Source: Bacteroidota bacterium
GTDB lineage: Bacteria > Bacteroidota > Bacteroidia > Chitinophagales > Chitinophagaceae
NCBI GenBank assembly: GCA_013285595.1
Contig: JABDHF010000004.1
Coordinates: 1 to 64,000, forward strand
Direction of reading: 5' to 3'
DNA: 64,000 bases
The notes below the pieces were generated by a model that had not been told where the DNA came from, did no database searches, and saw nothing but the letters and a program-made list of their open reading frames with translations. Below, one piece after another: positions 107 to 23,468 of the stretch; the stretch's first letter is position 1, and each line of letters opens with the position of its first letter. The translations under genes and the position numbers were made by a program.

Positions 107-1421
107 CTACTGTTCCACCACTATATGGAACACCCGGCTGCCGCCGGCTGTCTTCAGGTTCAGCAGGTACATGCCGTTGGCTATGCCGCCCAGCTGTATG
201 CGCTCGTTCACCTTACCGCCCGGAGCCTTCGCCTGACCGCGGTATACCACCTGCCCAAGCATGTCCGTCACCTCTATCGTTACCTCCCCGTCTGCGCCCT
301 CCAGCGTTCCCTTCACCACAAACGATCCCCGGTTAGGGTTCGGTACCACCGTGAAGTCCTCACCAGCGCTCAGCGTACCTACACCCTCGGCATGCGTGCC
401 TATATACACCCACCCGTAAGAGGTAGCCCCGCACGCTCCGTCCGTTGTCACAAGGCACGTCACAGAGTCCTCATGGGGATAGTTGAAGTTATTGCTGATG
501 AACGTATTGCCTGTAGCTCCGGCCACCGGAACATTGTTCACCACCCACTGGTAGCTCACATGCGCATCGCCGCTGGCAACTGTTGCCGTCAGCGTATCAA
601 ACTTCCCGATAACCACACTCGTATGGCCGCTGATCGTTACCACAGGGATATACGGCGTGTCCACGCTGATCGTTACCAGGTTGCTCACCACCGTCGTCGC
701 CGTACGGCACAGGTAGTCGCTGTTCATGCTCAGCTGTAATATGTCTCCCGCATCAGGGATATACGTATACGAGGCTGATGTAGCCGCGTTTGATCCGTTC
801 TTTATCCATGTATATGCCGGCGATGCGCCGCCATATACCGGCGCCGCCGTCACCGTCACCGCACTGCCCCGGCATACCGTATCGCCCGGCGTCGCCACCA
901 CGCCGGCTACCGGAAGCTCCAGCGCCAGCACCGTCATCCGAAGGCTCGTATCGGCCGTTACAGGCAGCGGGCACGCAGCATTGCTTGTCAGCACCACGCC
1001 CACCTCGTCGCCATCGGCGGGGATGAACGTATACGTACTGCCCGTACCCACCGCTACGCCGTTCACAGACCATGCATAGGCGGGGGCCGTGCCACCGTAG
1101 AACGGCACTGCCGTAAAGACCGCAGACGTACCCGTACATACCGTGCTGCCGCCCGGAGTGCTGATGCTCACAGACGGAGCTGTAGTCGCCAGCACCGTTA
1201 CCGTGGCGCTGCCACCCATAACATTCGTACACCCGGTGGTTGTATTGATCGCCGTCACCGTATAGGCTCCGCCTACCGTCTGCAGCCCGAAGTCAAGGGC
1301 CGAGCCCGTGCCAGGGAACGTACCCGTCGGCGTAGCCCCGTGGTACAGCAGGTAGTTGACGCCGCCTGTGGAGCCATTTAAGCCTATGTGAACGCCTGCG
1401 CCACCGGCACAATAGCTGTCG
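107..1421 (-). CDS. C-terminal part of giant Ig-like repeat protein with T9SS type A sorting domain (frame-shifted from 1293..9068)
   Basis: ORF 107..1258 begins at an internal GTG. The frame is open upstream to the C7 tract at 1422-1428, reading DSYCAGGAGVHIGLNGSTGGVNYLLYHGATPTGTFPGTGSALDFGLQTVGGAYTVTAINTTTGC. It ends in FTVVPNPNRGSFVVKG...GMYLLNLKTAGGSRVFHIVVEQ, a T9SS CTD. Confidence 0.85.
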
Positions 1422-4400
1422 CCCCCCCGTCAGCGCAAACACTGTCGGCAATGGCTGAACCTGGATGATCTTACCCGCAGAGCAGCCAAACCCTAATGAG
1501 TAGCTGATGATCACAGAACCTATGGCTACGCCATGGACAACGCCGGAGGATGACCCCACTGTCGCCACGCCGCCGTTGCTGCTCGTCCATACGCCCCCCG
1601 TGACCACATCCGTAAACAGGTCATCGGCATGAAGGCATACATTCGATGGGCCCGTGATAGCCTGTGGCGACGGATGCACCGTTACTGCCGCCGTGGCCGA
1701 ACAACCCGTCGGCAAACTATACGATATCGTCGCTGTGCCGGCAAGGAGGCCGCTCAGCGCTCCCGAAAACGGGTTGATACCCGCTACCCCGCCATTGCTG
1801 CTGCTCCACAGTCCCCCTGTCGTTACTTCAAACAACGCCACTGTGGCCCCTTCACACACGCCCAGCGGTGATGACGGGCCGGTTACCGGGCCCGGGGCAG
1901 GGTTCACTGCTACTGTTATATCCTGCGTGCAGCCCGCTCCCAGAGAATACGTGATACCGGCAAAGCCGCCCAGGGGCGTCACCCCAAGCACCGCGCCCGT
2001 AACGGAGTCCACCGTTGCTACCGATGCGTCAGAACTGCTCCAGATACCGCCGCCGGGGCTGTCGCCAAGAACCGTGACAGCTCCGGTGCATACCACCGGG
2101 ACGCCCGTGATGCTGCCCGGCATAGGGCTTACCGTCACTACCTGCACGGCCGCACATACACCCGAAGAATAACTGATAGCCGACGTACCAACCGCAAACC
2201 CATATACATTACCCGCAGCGTCTACTGTCGCTACGCCTGTATTGCTGCTGCTCCAGTCCCCGCCAACACTCGTTTCCGCAAGCGTGATGCTCGTGTTGAT
2301 GCAGATATAGCCTGTCCCTGTTATAGGGTCCGGAGATACACTCACGCACACCGTGGCCGACACACTACAGCCGCTGCCCGTGGTATACGTGATACCCACG
2401 CAGCCTGCACTCACCGGCAGCGCCATCCCTGTCGCCGCATTGATGCTCACTACCGATGCATCGCTGCTGCTCCACGTGCCGCCGGTCGTCACCTCTCCAA
2501 GGACTGATGGCAGCCCCTGGCATAATACCGCAGGGGCCATTATCGCGCCCGGCTGGGGGGGTACCGTTATCGTGGTTCCCGTACCGCAGCCCGCGGCTGT
2601 CGAATACGATATCGTCACTGTGCCTCCGCTGCCGCCCGTTACAACACCCGTTACAGGATCCACCGTAGCTATCCCCGTAGCCGTGCTGCTCCACGTGCCG
2701 CCTGTGGCCGCATCCGTTAAGGTTATCGTTGACCCCACACATACTGCTGACAACCCGCTGATAGCAGCTGGCGTGGCGTTAACCCCTATATGCTCACTTG
2801 CCGTGCAGCCGCTGACCAGCGTGTACACCGCTGTCGCGGCGCCGCCGGTGGTGCCTGTGCCCGTAAGCACCCCTGTTACAGGGTCTATCGTAGCTATCGC
2901 TGCAGGGGAAACACTCCATGTGCCGCCGCTCACCGCATCTGTTAATGTTATCGTCGCGCTGCCGGTAAGGCATACCGATGACGGGCCGCCGATCGCAGGA
3001 GGCACAGGGTTCACCGTTACCACCGCTACCGCAGGACAGCCCGTGCCAGGGCTTGTCGTCGTGATCGTAGCAGTACCATACGATACCCCCGTCACCACGC
3101 CACCACCCGATATAACCGCTACAAGCGTATTGCTGCTGCTCCACGCACTGCCCCCGCTAAGGCTGCTCGTGGAACCCACACATATATTCAGCAAGCCGCT
3201 GATCGCTGGCGGGGCCGCGTTGACCGTTACCGCTACGGAGGTCCCGCAGCCTGTCGGCAGCGTATACGTGACCGTCGCCGTTCCCGCGGCCACTCCCCCA
3301 ATGAGCCCTGTCGTTACTCCGCTTGTTATTGCTGTCGCTATCCCCGCGTCGCTGCTGCTCCAGCTGCCGCTGCCCGTCGTATCGGTAAGCGTCATCGCCA
3401 TCCCCTGGCACAGCGGCGCATTACCCGCTATTGGCGACAGCGCATTTACTATAATGCTGCTGATCACGCTGCAGCCCGTACCTATCGTATAGGATACGAT
3501 CACCGTTCCTGAAGACACACCCCACAGAACGCCGCTAGTACTATTGATCGTCGCCAGCGAGGACGGGCCCGTAGACCACGTGCCCCCGGTAGCCGCATCT
3601 GATAAAACTGAGGAGGAGCCTGTGCACACCATCGCGCTGCCAAGGATAGGAGGTGGCGGTGGCAGCACGCTTATCAGCTCGCTCACCATGCACCCCGGGC
3701 CCAGCGAATACTGGATCGTAGCAAAACCACCCGATATGCCGCATACCTGCCCGCTCGTCGCGTTCACCACGGCGACCGCGGTATTGCTGCTCGTCCACGT
3801 ACCACCGGTGGTAGCATCGCTGAGCAGCGTACACGGGCCCTCACAGATACTCACCGGCCCACCGATCGCTGCAGGGGCTGTGGTCACTGTAAATAATTCA
3901 CTTATAGAACACCCGGTCGGGGGCGTATAGGTCACTGTCGTTGTCCCGGGGCCTGCCCCGGTGATGATCCCCGAGGTCGCAGGAAGGAATGTCGCTACTG
4001 CGGTATTGCTGCTGCTCCAGGTGCCGCCGCCGGCCGTTGAGCTCAGCGCGGTCGACGATCCCGCACACTCATGGCTACCGCCGCTGATAGAGCCCGGAAG
4101 CCCGTTCACAGTCACCACTACCGACTTCGTGCACCCAAAACCTAAAGAATACGTTATCGTGGACGTACCCGCTATATTGCCGCATACCAGGCCGCTGCTG
4201 CTGCCCACCGTAGCTACCGATGTATTGCTGCTCGTCCACGTACCACCGCTGATCGTATCGGACAGCGGCGTGCACACACCCATGCATACATGCGTCGTCC
4301 CTGTTATAATAGAGGGCGCAAGGTTTACAGTTACCGTTACCGATGCGCTGCAGCCCGCGGCCGTAGTATAAAAAATAGCTGCCGTACCCTGGCTTAACCC

Positions 4401-7400
4401 AAGAACCGTACCGCCGCTTACCGTGGCAACTCCTGGTGCTACGCTGCTCCACGTGCCGCCAGGGGTCCCGTCTGTTAACGTTGTCGTCGTGCCAAGGCAC
4501 ATCCCCGTGCTGCCAACGATAGCCTGTATCGGGTTCACCGTAACTATCTTCTGCACCACGCAGCTGCCGCCAAGGGAATAGGTTATCGTAGTAAGGCCGC
4601 CGGTAAGGCCGCTTACATGGCCGTTGCCGTCTACTGTGGCCACTGTTGTGTTGCTGCTCGTCCACGTACCGCCGCTGATGCCATCAGACAGCGTGGCCGT
4701 TGCACCTGCACATACCGACGAAGCGCCGCTGACCGGAAGTGGCGCGGAGTTCACCGTTACCGTCACCGACGCGCTGCAGCCACCCAGCGTATACGTGATC
4801 ACCGAGGTACCGGGGGTTATGCCCGCCGTCACCGTGCCGCTGATCACCGTTACTACTGTATTGCTGCTCGCCCAGCTGCCCCCGCCTATCCCATCGGTAA
4901 GCACCGAGGTAGCTCCCGCACAAAGGCCCTGGGAGCCAAGGATCGCAGAGGGAGCTGGGGTTACCGTCATCATACGCGTTACCGTGCAGCCCGAGCCAAG
5001 GGAATACGTGATCGTCGCCGTGCCCCCGGATACGCCCGTTACCGTACCCGCACCGGAGCCTACCGGTACTACCGTAGCCACCGAGGTCGCCGAAGACGTC
5101 CACGAACCGCCCGAAGGAAGGTCGCTCTCTATAGTTGCAGCGCCAACGCATACAGTGCCCGATCCCGTGATAGGGCCGGGGGAAGAGCTTACCGCTACTG
5201 TGGTCGTAGCCGTGCACCCGCCGGTGGTCGTATACGTTATCGTGGTCGTTAAGCCAGAGCCGGAGATCGTACCCGTCACCAGGCCGGTGCCCGCCACCAC
5301 TGTCGCCGCCAGCGTATTGCTGCTGCTCCACGTGCCACCGGTAAAGCCCGGGGCCGACTCCGGGATAGAGGCGCCGGCGCATACTGCCGTCGGGCCCATG
5401 ATCGTCGGAACCGCGCTGATCGTTACCGTAGCGCTGCCCGTCATCAGCTTCGTACACCCTGTCGAGGTGTTCGTCGCCACTACTGTATAAGTGCCCGCTG
5501 CCGGCTGGGCGCCAAAGTCTATAGATGCTCCTGTGCCGGGCATAGAAGCACCCACCATGGACGTGCCAAGGAACAGCTGGTACCCAACGCCTGCTGCTGA
5601 GTTGGACAGCAGGATATGAGGGCCCGCGCCGCCGGGGCACACCGTACCGCTCCCCGTTACCGTAAAGGCTGCCGGTAACGGCAGTATCGTGATCACCGCG
5701 CTGCCGGGCATAGCCGCAGGGCACCCGGAGGTTGCCGTAACCGTATACGTGCCAGCTACGGTATAAGTGCCAAAATTAAAGGAAGATCCCGTGCCGCTTG
5801 TCGTGGTGATCGTTGCAGCCCCGTTATGTAAAGTATACGTTACGCCAATGTCTGATCCCGCAAGACCTATCAGCGCACCGACACCGGGACAGATGTTCCC
5901 GCCGCCGGTAACTGCATAGGATGACGGGACAACCGCCGCCGTCACTATCGCCGAGCCTGTCATCGTGCGGCTGCAGCCCGTAGCTGCATTTGCAGCTACT
6001 ATAGTATAGGTCCCAGCTGTGGTCACCGTGCCCAGCGTCAGCGCTGAGCCCGTGCCCGTAACAACGCCGCCCACAGGCGTCCCGCCCACGGACAGCTGGT
6101 AATGAACCCCTACTACTGACCCGCTGAGCGTAATAGCTATACCCGCGCCGCCGGCGCAGTAAGACCCGCCGCCGCCTACCGTAAATACCGCGGGCAGGGC
6201 ATACACCGTCACCACTGCTGTGGCTACGCACGTGCCGCCCGTTGAATACGTGATCGTCGTGATACCGCTCGGGGCCGTCCCCGACAGCACGCCCGTGATA
6301 ATACCGGTAGTAAGGCCTGCCGTAGCAACCGTTGCCGTGCTGCTCGCCCACGTGCCTGTACCCGGAGGGTCTGTTAACGTGACCGTAGAGCCGGCACATA
6401 CAGACAAAGTACCCGTAATAGGGCCCGGGGCTGCATTTACCGTTACCACAGCTACCCGCGTACAGAACGTGCTCGGCTGGGTATATATGATCGTATCTGT
6501 TCCGGGGGTAACGCCTGTCGTCACGCCGCCGCCCGTCGGGCCGGGCGTAACCATCGCTATACCGGGGTGGACACTCATCCACGTTCCCAGACCCGGAGGA
6601 TCCGATAAGATCACCGACTGACCCGCACACACATGCAGCACGCCCGAGATCGGGTTGGGGGGTGGGTATACCGTGATCAGTGTCGTTATAGAACAGCCCG
6701 AAGGGGCAGTATACGTGATCGTTGTAAAGCCGGAGCTGCCCGTTACCGTGCCGCCCGTTACTATGCCGTTCGTAAAGCCTATCGACGCCACCGCCGGGTT
6801 GCTGCTCGTCCACGTACCACCCGTGATCGGGTCGGTCAGCGTGATCGTAGCTGCGGTACAAACAGTACCCGGGCCCGCGATCGGCGGTGGGGACGGGTTC
6901 ACCGTCAGCACCGCTGTTATAGGACAGAAAGAAGAGTTGGTATAAGTGATCGTAACCAGCCCGGCAACAATGCCACTCTGCACTACTCCCAGTACCGCGT
7001 CTATCGAGGCTATATTATTATCGCTGCTCTGCCAGAAGCCCCCAACAGAGGTATCGAACAAGGTCGTAAAGCTCCCGTTCTCACACAGAGACAGTACACC
7101 CGTAATTACACCCGGCAATGCACCTATCGTTACCGTAGTGGTCGTATCACAACCCGACGGCAGTGTATACGTGATCGTAGCCGTACCGCCCGATACACCC
7201 CATACCGCACCCGATGAGGAGCCCACCGTAGCCCTCGCCGTATTGCTGCTCGTCCATATGCCGCCACCAGGGTCGGTCAGCGTGGTCGATGTCCCGGAGC
7301 ATGTAACAGGTGTCCCGCCTATAGGTTGCGGCAACGCATTCACCGTCAGCAATGCTGTTATAGAGCACCCGCCTGGCGCCGTATACGTAACCGTTGTAGT

Positions 7401-9068
7401 AGTCGTAAATATCACAGCGCTGCCCGTTGCAATACCCGTCGTAGATCCTGTAGAAGCGATCGTAGGATTGCTCAGCCATGTACCGCCCGGCGTCGCATCG
7501 GTAAGCTGTGTTGTCAGCCCGGCGCATACGTGCAAAACACCACCTATAGGGGCCGGAGCAGGGTTAACCGTTACTACAGTTGAGGTAAAGCAACTGCCTA
7601 ATGAATAGGTGATCGTTGTAGTGCCCGGGGCCAGCCCATGCACTATACCAGGCGTACCTGTAGTATTTATAGTAGCAACACCCGTATTACTGCTGCTCCA
7701 CGTACCACCGGCAGTACCGTCGGTAAGTGCTATCGTTAGTCCCTGGCACAGCAACGCTGCGGCACCCGATATGGGTACTGGCGTGGTTACGATATTTATC
7801 GGGTATGTAACATAACATCCCGCAGGCATAATGTAACTGATACTGGCTATGCCAACGGCCACGCCCGTAACGACTCCCGAAGATGTTACCGTAGCAATTC
7901 CCGTATTACTGCTGCTCCACGAGCCGCCAGTAGTAACCTCCGTAAGTGTAGTAGTGGAGTTGGTACATAACGATGACATGGTGCCGGAAATAGGCGCAGG
8001 AACAATGTTCAGGATCAACTGTATTGGTGCGGAAGGAGCGCTTAACCCGGAATTGGTACACAGGTATACGCAACGATAGTAAATGGTGCCGGTAACAGAG
8101 GCTGTATAGCTGGCGTTGGTAGCGCCCGGCACATTCGTCCATCCGGTAGCGCCATCTAGCGATGACTGCCACTGAAACGTAATACCTAATGGAACACAAG
8201 GCGGCACAGACACAACAGAGGTGTATGGCGCACATGCTGCCGTAACGGTAGCACTTACTGTACCTGGGTTTGGTATGCCTGTACAATTAGGGTCCCACCT
8301 GTAAACCTGGCCTGTGGCAGGCACGCCGGTTAATGACCTCGATTCCGTAGTCATACTTGGAGTGGGGGAAGTGCCTGTACTATTCAGCGACCAATAAGGT
8401 TGTACGCCAGTAACAGGAACAGGGCCGTTGCCACCAGTAATTCCGATAGCTAAAAAACCTGTAAAAGTTGTATAGGTTGACAAAAAATTGTACGTAAAGT
8501 CAATGACATTTGTCGATTCGTATAACTTTAATTCAACACTTACTGCAGGCCCCCCAGTAAACGGCGCAAATAGATTTGTGATAACAAAGGCAACGCTGTC
8601 CCACTCTATTGTAAAAATCCGGTTAGGTGCAATACCCGTTGTAGAATAACGCACCGTGGGCGTCGCAGTAGATGCATCGATCCAAAACGGTGCTAAAATG
8701 GGCCGGGGTAAATTAGCGCCACCAGGAAAAGTATTTGACAGATCATCATCGTAAGTATCGAACCCTAAAGTGGAAGCTGAGGTACCCAGCGTTTGCCCTA
8801 AAACAACCCAGCAGTTTGCAGATGCCGATAAAGAATTATAGGTATTGCAATTATAAACGAAATTAAACCCGATAGGGATGTTGTTATACCAGCAATCATC
8901 GTAAGTACTGGTACTATTCAAAGTTCCGCCCGAAGGAGTAGTCATAAATGGCGTGGTCAACGAAGTATATGGACTATTGAATGCACTGAAGTTATAACTG
9001 CTTAAAGGCTGGCAAAATCCAGTATTTACAAAAACGATCGATAGGATAAGTAATAGTAGCTTTTTCAT
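1293..9068 (-). CDS. Giant secreted multi-Ig-like (BIG2-type) repeat protein, N-terminal and repeat-array part
   Basis: Signal peptide MKKLLLLILSIVFVNTGFCQ and an N-terminal jelly-roll-like region. These precede about 30 repeats of the pattern 'P.pI.G...vC.G....L.D...GGTWSSSN..vATV....G.v.G...G.a.ItYslg.GC....vtVn'. The last about 44 aa (RQLLCRWRRRSHRL...) are out of frame. Confidence 0.9.
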   Translation of the reverse strand: MKKLLLLILSIVFVNTGFCQPLSSYNFSAFNSPYTSLTTPFMTTPSGGTLNSTSTYDDCWYNNIPIGFNFVYNCNTYNSLSASANCWVVLGQTLGTSASTLGFDTYDDDLSNTFPGGANLPRPILAPFWIDASTATPTVRYSTTGIAPNRIFTIEWDSVAFVITNLFAPFTGGPAVSVELKLYESTNVIDFTYNFLSTYTTFTGFLAIGITGGNGPVPVTGVQPYWSLNSTGTSPTPSMTTESRSLTGVPATGQVYRWDPNCTGIPNPGTVSATVTAACAPYTSVVSVPPCVPLGITFQWQSSLDGATGWTNVPGATNASYTASVTGTIYYRCVYLCTNSGLSAPSAPIQLILNIVPAPISGTMSSLCTNSTTTLTEVTTGGSWSSSNTGIATVTSSGVVTGVAVGIASISYIMPAGCYVTYPINIVTTPVPISGAAALLCQGLTIALTDGTAGGTWSSSNTGVATINTTGTPGIVHGLAPGTTTITYSLGSCFTSTVVTVNPAPAPIGGVLHVCAGLTTQLTDATPGGTWLSNPTIASTGSTTGIATGSAVIFTTTTTVTYTAPGGCSITALLTVNALPQPIGGTPVTCSGTSTTLTDPGGGIWTSSNTARATVGSSSGAVWGVSGGTATITYTLPSGCDTTTTVTIGALPGVITGVLSLCENGSFTTLFDTSVGGFWQSSDNNIASIDAVLGVVQSGIVAGLVTITYTNSSFCPITAVLTVNPSPPPIAGPGTVCTAATITLTDPITGGTWTSSNPAVASIGFTNGIVTGGTVTGSSGFTTITYTAPSGCSITTLITVYPPPNPISGVLHVCAGQSVILSDPPGLGTWMSVHPGIAMVTPGPTGGGVTTGVTPGTDTIIYTQPSTFCTRVAVVTVNAAPGPITGTLSVCAGSTVTLTDPPGTGTWASSTATVATAGLTTGIITGVLSGTAPSGITTITYSTGGTCVATAVVTVYALPAVFTVGGGGSYCAGGAGIAITLSGSVVGVHYQLSVGGTPVGGVVTGTGSALTLGTVTTAGTYTIVAANAATGCSRTMTGSAIVTAAVVPSSYAVTGGGNICPGVGALIGLAGSDIGVTYTLHNGAATITTTSGTGSSFNFGTYTVAGTYTVTATSGCPAAMPGSAVITILPLPAAFTVTGSGTVCPGGAGPHILLSNSAAGVGYQLFLGTSMVGASMPGTGASIDFGAQPAAGTYTVVATNTSTGCTKLMTGSATVTISAVPTIMGPTAVCAGASIPESAPGFTGGTWSSSNTLAATVVAGTGLVTGTISGSGLTTTITYTTTGGCTATTTVAVSSSPGPITGSGTVCVGAATIESDLPSGGSWTSSATSVATVVPVGSGAGTVTGVSGGTATITYSLGSGCTVTRMMTVTPAPSAILGSQGLCAGATSVLTDGIGGGSWASSNTVVTVISGTVTAGITPGTSVITYTLGGCSASVTVTVNSAPLPVSGASSVCAGATATLSDGISGGTWTSSNTTVATVDGNGHVSGLTGGLTTITYSLGGSCVVQKIVTVNPIQAIVGSTGMCLGTTTTLTDGTPGGTWSSVAPGVATVSGGTVLGLSQGTAAIFYTTAAGCSASVTVTVNLAPSIITGTTHVCMGVCTPLSDTISGGTWTSSNTSVATVGSSSGLVCGNIAGTSTITYSLGFGCTKSVVVTVNGLPGSISGGSHECAGSSTALSSTAGGGTWSSSNTAVATFLPATSGIITGAGPGTTTVTYTPPTGCSISELFTVTTAPAAIGGPVSICEGPCTLLSDATTGGTWTSSNTAVAVVNATSGQVCGISGGFATIQYSLGPGCMVSELISVLPPPPPILGSAMVCTGSSSVLSDAATGGTWSTGPSSLATINSTSGVLWGVSSGTVIVSYTIGTGCSVISSIIVNALSPIAGNAPLCQGMAMTLTDTTGSGSWSSSDAGIATAITSGVTTGLIGGVAAGTATVTYTLPTGCGTSVAVTVNAAPPAISGLLNICVGSTSSLSGGSAWSSSNTLVAVISGGGVVTGVSYGTATITTTSPGTGCPAVAVVTVNPVPPAIGGPSSVCLTGSATITLTDAVSGGTWSVSPAAIATIDPVTGVLTGTGTTGGAATAVYTLVSGCTASEHIGVNATPAAISGLSAVCVGSTITLTDAATGGTWSSTATGIATVDPVTGVVTGGSGGTVTISYSTAAGCGTGTTITVPPQPGAIMAPAVLCQGLPSVLGEVTTGGTWSSSDASVVSINAATGMALPVSAGCVGITYTTGSGCSVSATVCVSVSPDPITGTGYICINTSITLAETSVGGDWSSSNTGVATVDAAGNVYGFAVGTSAISYSSGVCAAVQVVTVSPMPGSITGVPVVCTGAVTVLGDSPGGGIWSSSDASVATVDSVTGAVLGVTPLGGFAGITYSLGAGCTQDITVAVNPAPGPVTGPSSPLGVCEGATVALFEVTTGGLWSSSNGGVAGINPFSGALSGLLAGTATISYSLPTGCSATAAVTVHPSPQAITGPSNVCLHADDLFTDVVTGGVWTSSNGGVATVGSSSGVVHGVAIGSVIISYSLGFGCSAGKIIQVQPLPTVFALTGGRQLLCRWRRRSHRLKWLHRRRQLPAVPRGYADGYVPWHGLGP
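1422..1428. other. Homopolymer C7 (G7 on coding strand) at the frameshift point
   Basis: tgtcg-ccccccc-gtcag. Removing one base restores the repeat consensus TGGDSYCAGGAG. Confidence 0.9.
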
Positions 9069-21350: not shown

Positions 21351-23372
21351 TCATCTGCCCAGAAGGCTAAGTGCCGACTCTGTGCTATTTACAGGCGATA
21401 GGCAAGCCTGTTCTGTACAAACAAATATATACATTTTATCAGCAAAAAACTTTTTTTCAAGAATGGGCAATTCAGATATTTCTTTTTTAGAAGTGAGCAA
21501 AAATGATGCTGGCAGATAGTTTGCCTGCATTTCCTTCCTGCCCTCATCTGCTCCTTTTCCCGCGCAAATGATTGTTTTGCTCCCGGCCGTAGATCGCTGC
21601 ATCAGCAATGCCCAATACCCGAACGAATAGCTGTATCTCACCGCGGTATCCGCCATTTGCCGCAACATCACTTTTGAGCGCTCTATCCATTCGCTTTTTT
21701 CCATGCACATACCACATATCCACAGGTTCTGGGCCATAAATGCATTGGCCGATGGTGTTGCGCCATCATACAGGTCCACTTTGCGCACAGGTATGTCACT
21801 TTGCTGTTCCGGGGTGTAAAAGAAAAAGCCGTCTTCCCTGCTAAAATCTGTTATTACAGTGTCCGTAAGCGCTGAGGCCTTCAATACCCACTTGTTTTCT
21901 CCGGTTGCAGATGCCAGTTGCAGCATTGCCTGCACCAGGTAAGCGTAGTCATCCAGCTTGGCAGGTATTTTTGCCACTCCGCTCTTCCAGGTATGCAGTA
22001 CCCCCCCATTGGCCTCAAAGCTGTCCCGCATCCAGTCCATGTGCCCGGCTGCCAGTTTCAGGTACTTTTCTTCCCCCAGCGCCACTCCTGCCTTGCTCAA
22101 GCTTATGTTCATCAGCGCATTCCACGATAGCAGGCACTTATCATCAGTTTGCGGCCTTTCCTTTTTTGCCCGCTGTGCCAGCAGCTTATGCTTGGCTTCG
22201 TCAATGATCCTTTTCACCTCCTCCCCAGATAACCCGTTTTCAGCAGCAATTTCATCCATTTTTTTTGAAATGTGCAGTATGCTCGTCCCTTCCCAGTTTC
22301 CCTGTGGCACAAAGCCAAAATACTCCGCAGCTATCACGTTACTATCCCCAAGCACCTCCATCCACTCTTCCCATGTCCATGTATAAAATTTGCCCTCCAC
22401 CCCTTCGCTATCTGCATCCAGGGCGCAATAGTACCCTCCGCTCTTATCTTTCAGTTCATTTTCTACAAAAGCTATCGTTTCTTCTGCAATTACCTTATAC
22501 CGGACGTTTTTTGTAATACTGTACGCATCGCACAGCGAAGAGATCAAAAGTGCATTATCATAAAGCATTTTTTCAAAGTGCGGAGCCAGCCATTCCCTAT
22601 CAGTGGAGTAGCGTGCAAAGCCCCCTGCCAGCTGATCATAAATGCCCCCATCTATCATCGCATCCAGGCTTAGCAAAGCATGTTCCAGTGCCGGTTCATA
22701 CCCTGTAAAATGGTAGTGCTCCAGCAAAAAGCTTATCGCCATAGTGCCTGGGAATTTTGGGGCATTGCCAAACCCGCCTTTCTCCTTGTCTGCCTGCTTT
22801 AGCAGGCTGTCGGCTATCTTCCTGCAAGTATCTCGGTCAAATGCCTGTCCCTGCTTCACAAATGCCTTTTCTGATGCCTGTCGCAAGTGTTGTATCATCT
22901 GCTCTGCCTGCTGTGCTACTTCGTCTTGTTGCAGCCGCCATATCTCATCCATTCTGTGCAGCAATTGCGTCCACGATGGCCGGTTAAATGCAGGCCTCGG
23001 CGGATAGTAGGTACCTCCATAAAACGGAGCCCGCTCAGGTGTTACAAACACATTGAGCGGCCAGCCTCCATTACCTGCTATGGCCTGCACTGCATCCATG
23101 TACATGTGGTCCACATCAGGGTGCTCTTCCCGGTCCACTTTTATGCATACAAACCGCTCATTCATAAGCGCAGCCACTGCATCATCTTCAAAGCTCTCAT
23201 GCTCCATTACATGGCACCAGTGGCACGCCGCATAGCCGATGCTTACTATTACGGGTTTCTGTTCCGCTTTAGCTTTGGCAAAAGCCTCGTCGCCCCATGG
23301 GTACCAGTCTACAGGGTTATGGGCATGTTGCAGTAAATAAGGGCTTTGTTCGTTAATGAGTTTGTTGGCCAT
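21351..23372 (-). CDS. Thioredoxin domain-containing protein, YyaL/DUF255 family
   Basis: [63 protein letters not shown]...[26 protein letters not shown]. Confidence 0.95.
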
Positions 23373-23468
23373 ACAGCAAAGGTAATAGCCATTAGCCAAA
23401 AGGGCTTAATGCACAGATAAGCAGCCCTTTTTGCCTGTAGACAGTTTACGAATTATACTTCGGTGAGA

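Follow-up and report, generated by a model that had tools for sequence, protein, structure and literature searches.

A probably incidental extra base in a G run places a giant Ig-repeat protein and its T9SS sorting domain in different frames of an incomplete assembly

T9SS type A substrates with Big_2 repeats combine an N-terminal signal-like segment, an Ig-like array and a C-terminal type A domain. The protein described here is built in the same way but, unlike those substrates, it is assembled with its sorting domain and its repeats in different frames, at a run of seven G. Phase-variable contingency loci with poly-G tracts are known from Campylobacter and Neisseria, and contingency tracts usually have 8 or more bases. 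Like those loci, the present gene encodes a predicted surface protein and carries a G run at an out-of-frame length; unlike theirs, the run is short and not conserved, and the break is common to housekeeping-type genes. The best-known slippage sites are A/T runs of about 9, and a G7 run is a weak one. The GeneTack survey, which covered 1,106 genomes, attributes frameshifted genes that are singletons, with their homologues intact, mainly to sequencing error (PMC3711429). The present break resembles the singletons of that survey (PMC3711429) in that it occurs in one genome only, the homologues of relatives are intact and the site is not conserved, and differs in that the breaks of this assembly are concentrated in G/C runs and are all of one sign.

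The stretch analyzed, called the window throughout, comprises positions 1-64000 of contig C4 (74,479 bases), part of a MAG of 2.93 Mb in 146 contigs that is 59.6% complete. Its features that bear on the break are these:

1293..9068, minus strand: upstream ORF of 2,591 aa, with a signal-peptide-like N-terminus and an Ig-like (Big_2) repeat array
1422..1428, minus strand: G7 run (C7 on the plus strand), one base over what the frame of relatives requires
107..1429, minus strand: downstream open frame, with the last Ig-like repeats and a conserved C-terminal module of 437 aa
110..346, minus strand: T9SS type A sorting domain (TIGR04183 / PF18962), residues 359-435 of the downstream frame
2555..2561, plus strand: control tract, C7 in coding sense, in the same gene, frame unbroken
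22001..22007, minus strand: control tract, G7 in ORF 21351..23399, frame unbroken

The upstream ORF consists of native sequence to about residue 2549, where the G run lies (plus-strand context GTCG CCCCCCC GTCAGC), and its final 42 or so codons are out of frame: it reads PLPTVFALTGG up to the tract, then RQLLCRWRRR and on to the stop, with the repeat consensus lost. In the downstream frame a TGA at 1432-1430 adjoins the run, and no other stop follows from 1429 until the one at 107. The change of frame must therefore fall within 1429..1293, and the point where the repeat consensus is lost places it at the tract. Two independent scans, one of codon usage and one with a 3-periodic Markov model, locate the switch at 1423. 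The sorting domain of the downstream frame is recognized by TIGR04183 at 39.6 bits (cut-off 23) and by PF18962 (Por_Secre_tail) at 34 bits (cut-off 27), while profile matches in the upstream ORF are to Big_2 and an Ig-like family. These results bear out the preliminary description, according to which the G7 run at 1422-1428 ends the frame of the Ig-repeat ORF (9068..1293) and the other frame runs on past the tract into a T9SS sorting domain. As assembled, that domain is not in the frame of the exported repeats, whereas it is in frame with the repeats in those relatives whose open frame continues through the site.

Joined across the tract, for comparison only, the two frames give a protein of 2,986 aa, in agreement with the length of about 2,990 aa first proposed. 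Over most of its length, tract included, the joined protein aligns with 43-46% identity to an intact paralogue of 2,800 aa, encoded on contig C65 of this genome. The 437 codons downstream of the tract show no decay. The stretch VHIGLNGSTGGVNYLLYHG comes from the C-terminal part of this giant protein.

Other accounts of the two frames were considered and set aside. The first start codon of the downstream frame (GTG at 1258) lies within an Ig repeat and the homology extends upstream to the tract, which argues against a separate downstream gene. The 437-aa module has homologues in every member of the genus, which argues against a frame open by chance. A loss of two bases in place of a gain of one is disfavored, since a motif that is mostly ungapped would then gain a residue.

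Homologues of the 437-aa module occur in all 35 genus genomes, many of which have it in several giant paralogues of about 2,000-6,000 aa each; most of the full-length copies listed are part of open frames that span about 2,000 to 6,000 aa. The genome of the window itself holds eight further homologues that cover nearly the whole module. At the site of the tract, the inspected homologues that cover it read VTGGGSYC or a close variant in one frame, nearly all of them ungapped, and the window protein reads LTGG-DSYC. Their codons there are of the GGC/GGT type, except in one locus (L061) that has a diverged stretch instead, and no G run stands there in any of the inspected homologous C-terminal loci. 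Since the homologues keep a single frame without a G run, the run in the window is one base too long (+1). Comparison of the tract in relatives had been proposed at the outset as a check, and this is its outcome. No near-identical strain in which the same tract could be compared was found among the 100 relatives searched by DNA, and there was no IMG/VR match.

Family members with short open frames were examined as possible parallel cases and rejected, since most either run into a contig end or open with a natural start. L164, L126, L127 and L157 are exceptions; L127 and L157 are family pieces near contig ends. L164 (genome G031, contig C102) is also one of the family's repeat proteins, and an in-frame TGA within one of its repeats interrupts it.

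All G/C runs of at least 7 in the assembly of the window were listed, their neighborhoods were read and the frame was called with the 3-periodic Markov model; together with selected further stretches, the sequence examined in this genome came to about 810 kb. Coding runs of this kind number 28, of which 24 are in frame and 4 are shifted, each of the four having one base more than the homologous frame needs. The four broken genes are the adhesin of the window and genes for an O-antigen-ligase-like membrane protein, a histidine kinase and a DEAD-box helicase, names that for the last three were taken from reading the translations, not from family search. The other breaks in the assembly are as follows:

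Contig C40, 18063-18070: C8 run that breaks the putative DEAD-box helicase gene
Contig C23, 28439-28446: G8 run that breaks the gene of a putative O-antigen-ligase-like membrane protein
Contig C95, 8719-8725: G7 run that breaks a putative histidine kinase gene between its N-terminal membrane segment and the remainder
Contig C7, 3272: one-base break outside long runs, at C4 in a ClC-type channel gene
Contig C3, 14353: one-base break outside long runs, at A4 in a second repeat protein (L126)

Two of the three other tract-broken genes are associated with the envelope (the ligase-like membrane protein and the membrane sensor kinase), a class of genes in which real variation might be favored. The helicase is in one frame in 32 of the 32 other genus genomes that have the gene, the O-antigen-ligase-like gene is unbroken in 14 of 14 other loci of relatives, and the histidine kinase gene is unbroken in the relatives that cover the site.

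Coding A/T runs of at least 7 behaved differently: in the sequence read, 0 of 138 were shifted, against 4 of 28 for G/C (Fisher p = 0.0007). In two better assemblies from the genus, all 32 coding G/C tracts were in frame (25 in G002 and 7 sampled in G028), a small comparison between assemblies that gives p = 0.04. The other G/C runs of at least 7 in repeat genes of the family are also in frame. One relative has a coding G/C run of 12 bases (L237; G002, contig C1, 193110-193121) that is in frame by the model and would be a likelier place to find variation in length than the run in the window.

Apart from its one-base breaks, the assembly has joins of exactly 10 N inside several contigs. In two contigs, Ig-repeat coding pieces without start codons stand head to head (L127, 1-1300, contig C64; L131, 12593-13098, contig C77), which suggests chimeric joins within the repeat family.

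We conclude that the frame break is probably incidental, a G run made one base longer in this assembly, and that the extra base most likely arose as an artefact when the DNA was amplified, sequenced or assembled. One extra G would have been added to the run by a slip at one of these steps in the making of an incomplete MAG. Similar breaks are seen elsewhere in the assembly, in genes that are unrelated to the adhesin and otherwise conserved. Because the break is not specific to one gene, is not conserved and is common to a conserved helicase, it points to slippage at G/C runs across the genome, technical or real, and away from a switch evolved in the adhesin gene. We infer a technical cause because conserved genes are broken, because the assembly is incomplete and has other flaws of joining and indels, and because the survey cited above holds sequencing error responsible for most singleton frameshifts with intact homologues (PMC3711429). 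Restriction of the breaks to G/C runs fits slippage by a polymerase, in the cell or during amplification, better than it fits errors of run length, which would strike both kinds of run. Among the options that the preliminary description had left side by side, the incidental indel is thus the one now favored, the same +1 having appeared in three unrelated genes that are intact in relatives, and there is no sign of regulated phase variation or programmed recoding particular to the adhesin gene.

It is possible, although rather unlikely, that the +1 slip is a genuine mutation that arose recently in the cells sampled and inactivated the adhesin, leaving a product of about 2,590 aa that would lack the T9SS domain and be trapped in the periplasm. 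The main point for real slippage is that the shifts strike G/C runs and spare A/T runs, but slippage in amplification would also fit; the common +1 sign of all four shifts is likewise in favor. Loss of the adhesin could be tolerated because the genome has several paralogues, and the eight further copies of the C-terminal module agree with this. Such a mutation must, however, be extended to a helicase that every other genus member with the gene keeps intact and to kinase and ligase-like genes that are intact in relatives, and no further decay has followed downstream of the tract.

Slipped-strand phase variation, in which the G run would be a contingency locus and would turn the display of the adhesin at the surface on or off, is improbable. 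A homopolymer within a surface-protein gene, assembled at an out-of-frame length, is what such a locus would look like, and the second break, in an O-antigen-ligase-like gene, falls in a plausible class for phase variation. Seven bases are nevertheless short for a contingency tract, and the repeat of a contingency locus is expected at the same place in homologues, whereas no homologue inspected has a G run there. Other G/C runs of at least 7 leave the frame intact, both in the same gene (at 2555) and in the family's repeat genes, and the same break is seen in a cytosolic helicase and in the kinase. Regulated phase variation of the adhesin gene is therefore weakly supported. A broader version, in which G/C runs are unusually prone to slip in this lineage and those of 7-8 bases thereby serve as on/off switches throughout the genome, is highly doubtful; the switches would then include giant T9SS adhesins and, with equally little probability, O-antigen ligation, and weak mismatch repair would be an example of a cause.

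Least probable is that some full-length protein is made because transcription slips at the G run or ribosomes shift by +1 there. G7 is a possible slippage site, and the TGA that immediately precedes the run in the downstream frame keeps the change of frame within a short stretch. Against this, neither run nor shift is conserved in any homologue inspected, as recoding would be expected to be, relatives need no shift, and G runs of 7 slip weakly. The earlier remarks that restoration of the frame needs +1, and that a classic -1 ribosomal slip does not fit, are both correct. With the shift site absent from the homologues inspected, a conserved programmed frameshift was rejected, and programmed frameshifting is unlikely.

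Single homopolymer breaks in incomplete metagenome assemblies thus call for caution before a gene switch is read from them. A cheap test is to count how tracts of equal length behave, both in the assembly itself and in relatives, and here that count points away from a gene-specific switch. If reads nevertheless showed the tract at mixed lengths, poly-G phase variation of T9SS adhesins would merit a report for an uncultured member of the Bacteroidota. Under the favored reading, an incidental extra base, the gene in the organism would be an ordinary, intact Ig-repeat T9SS substrate of about 2,990 aa. To judge from its domain family, the intact protein would be exported by Sec; its C-terminal type A domain would then direct it across the outer membrane by way of the T9SS, and it would be held at the surface or released. 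The many giant Ig-repeat T9SS proteins per genome, which share one conserved C-terminal module, may interest specialists beyond the break itself.
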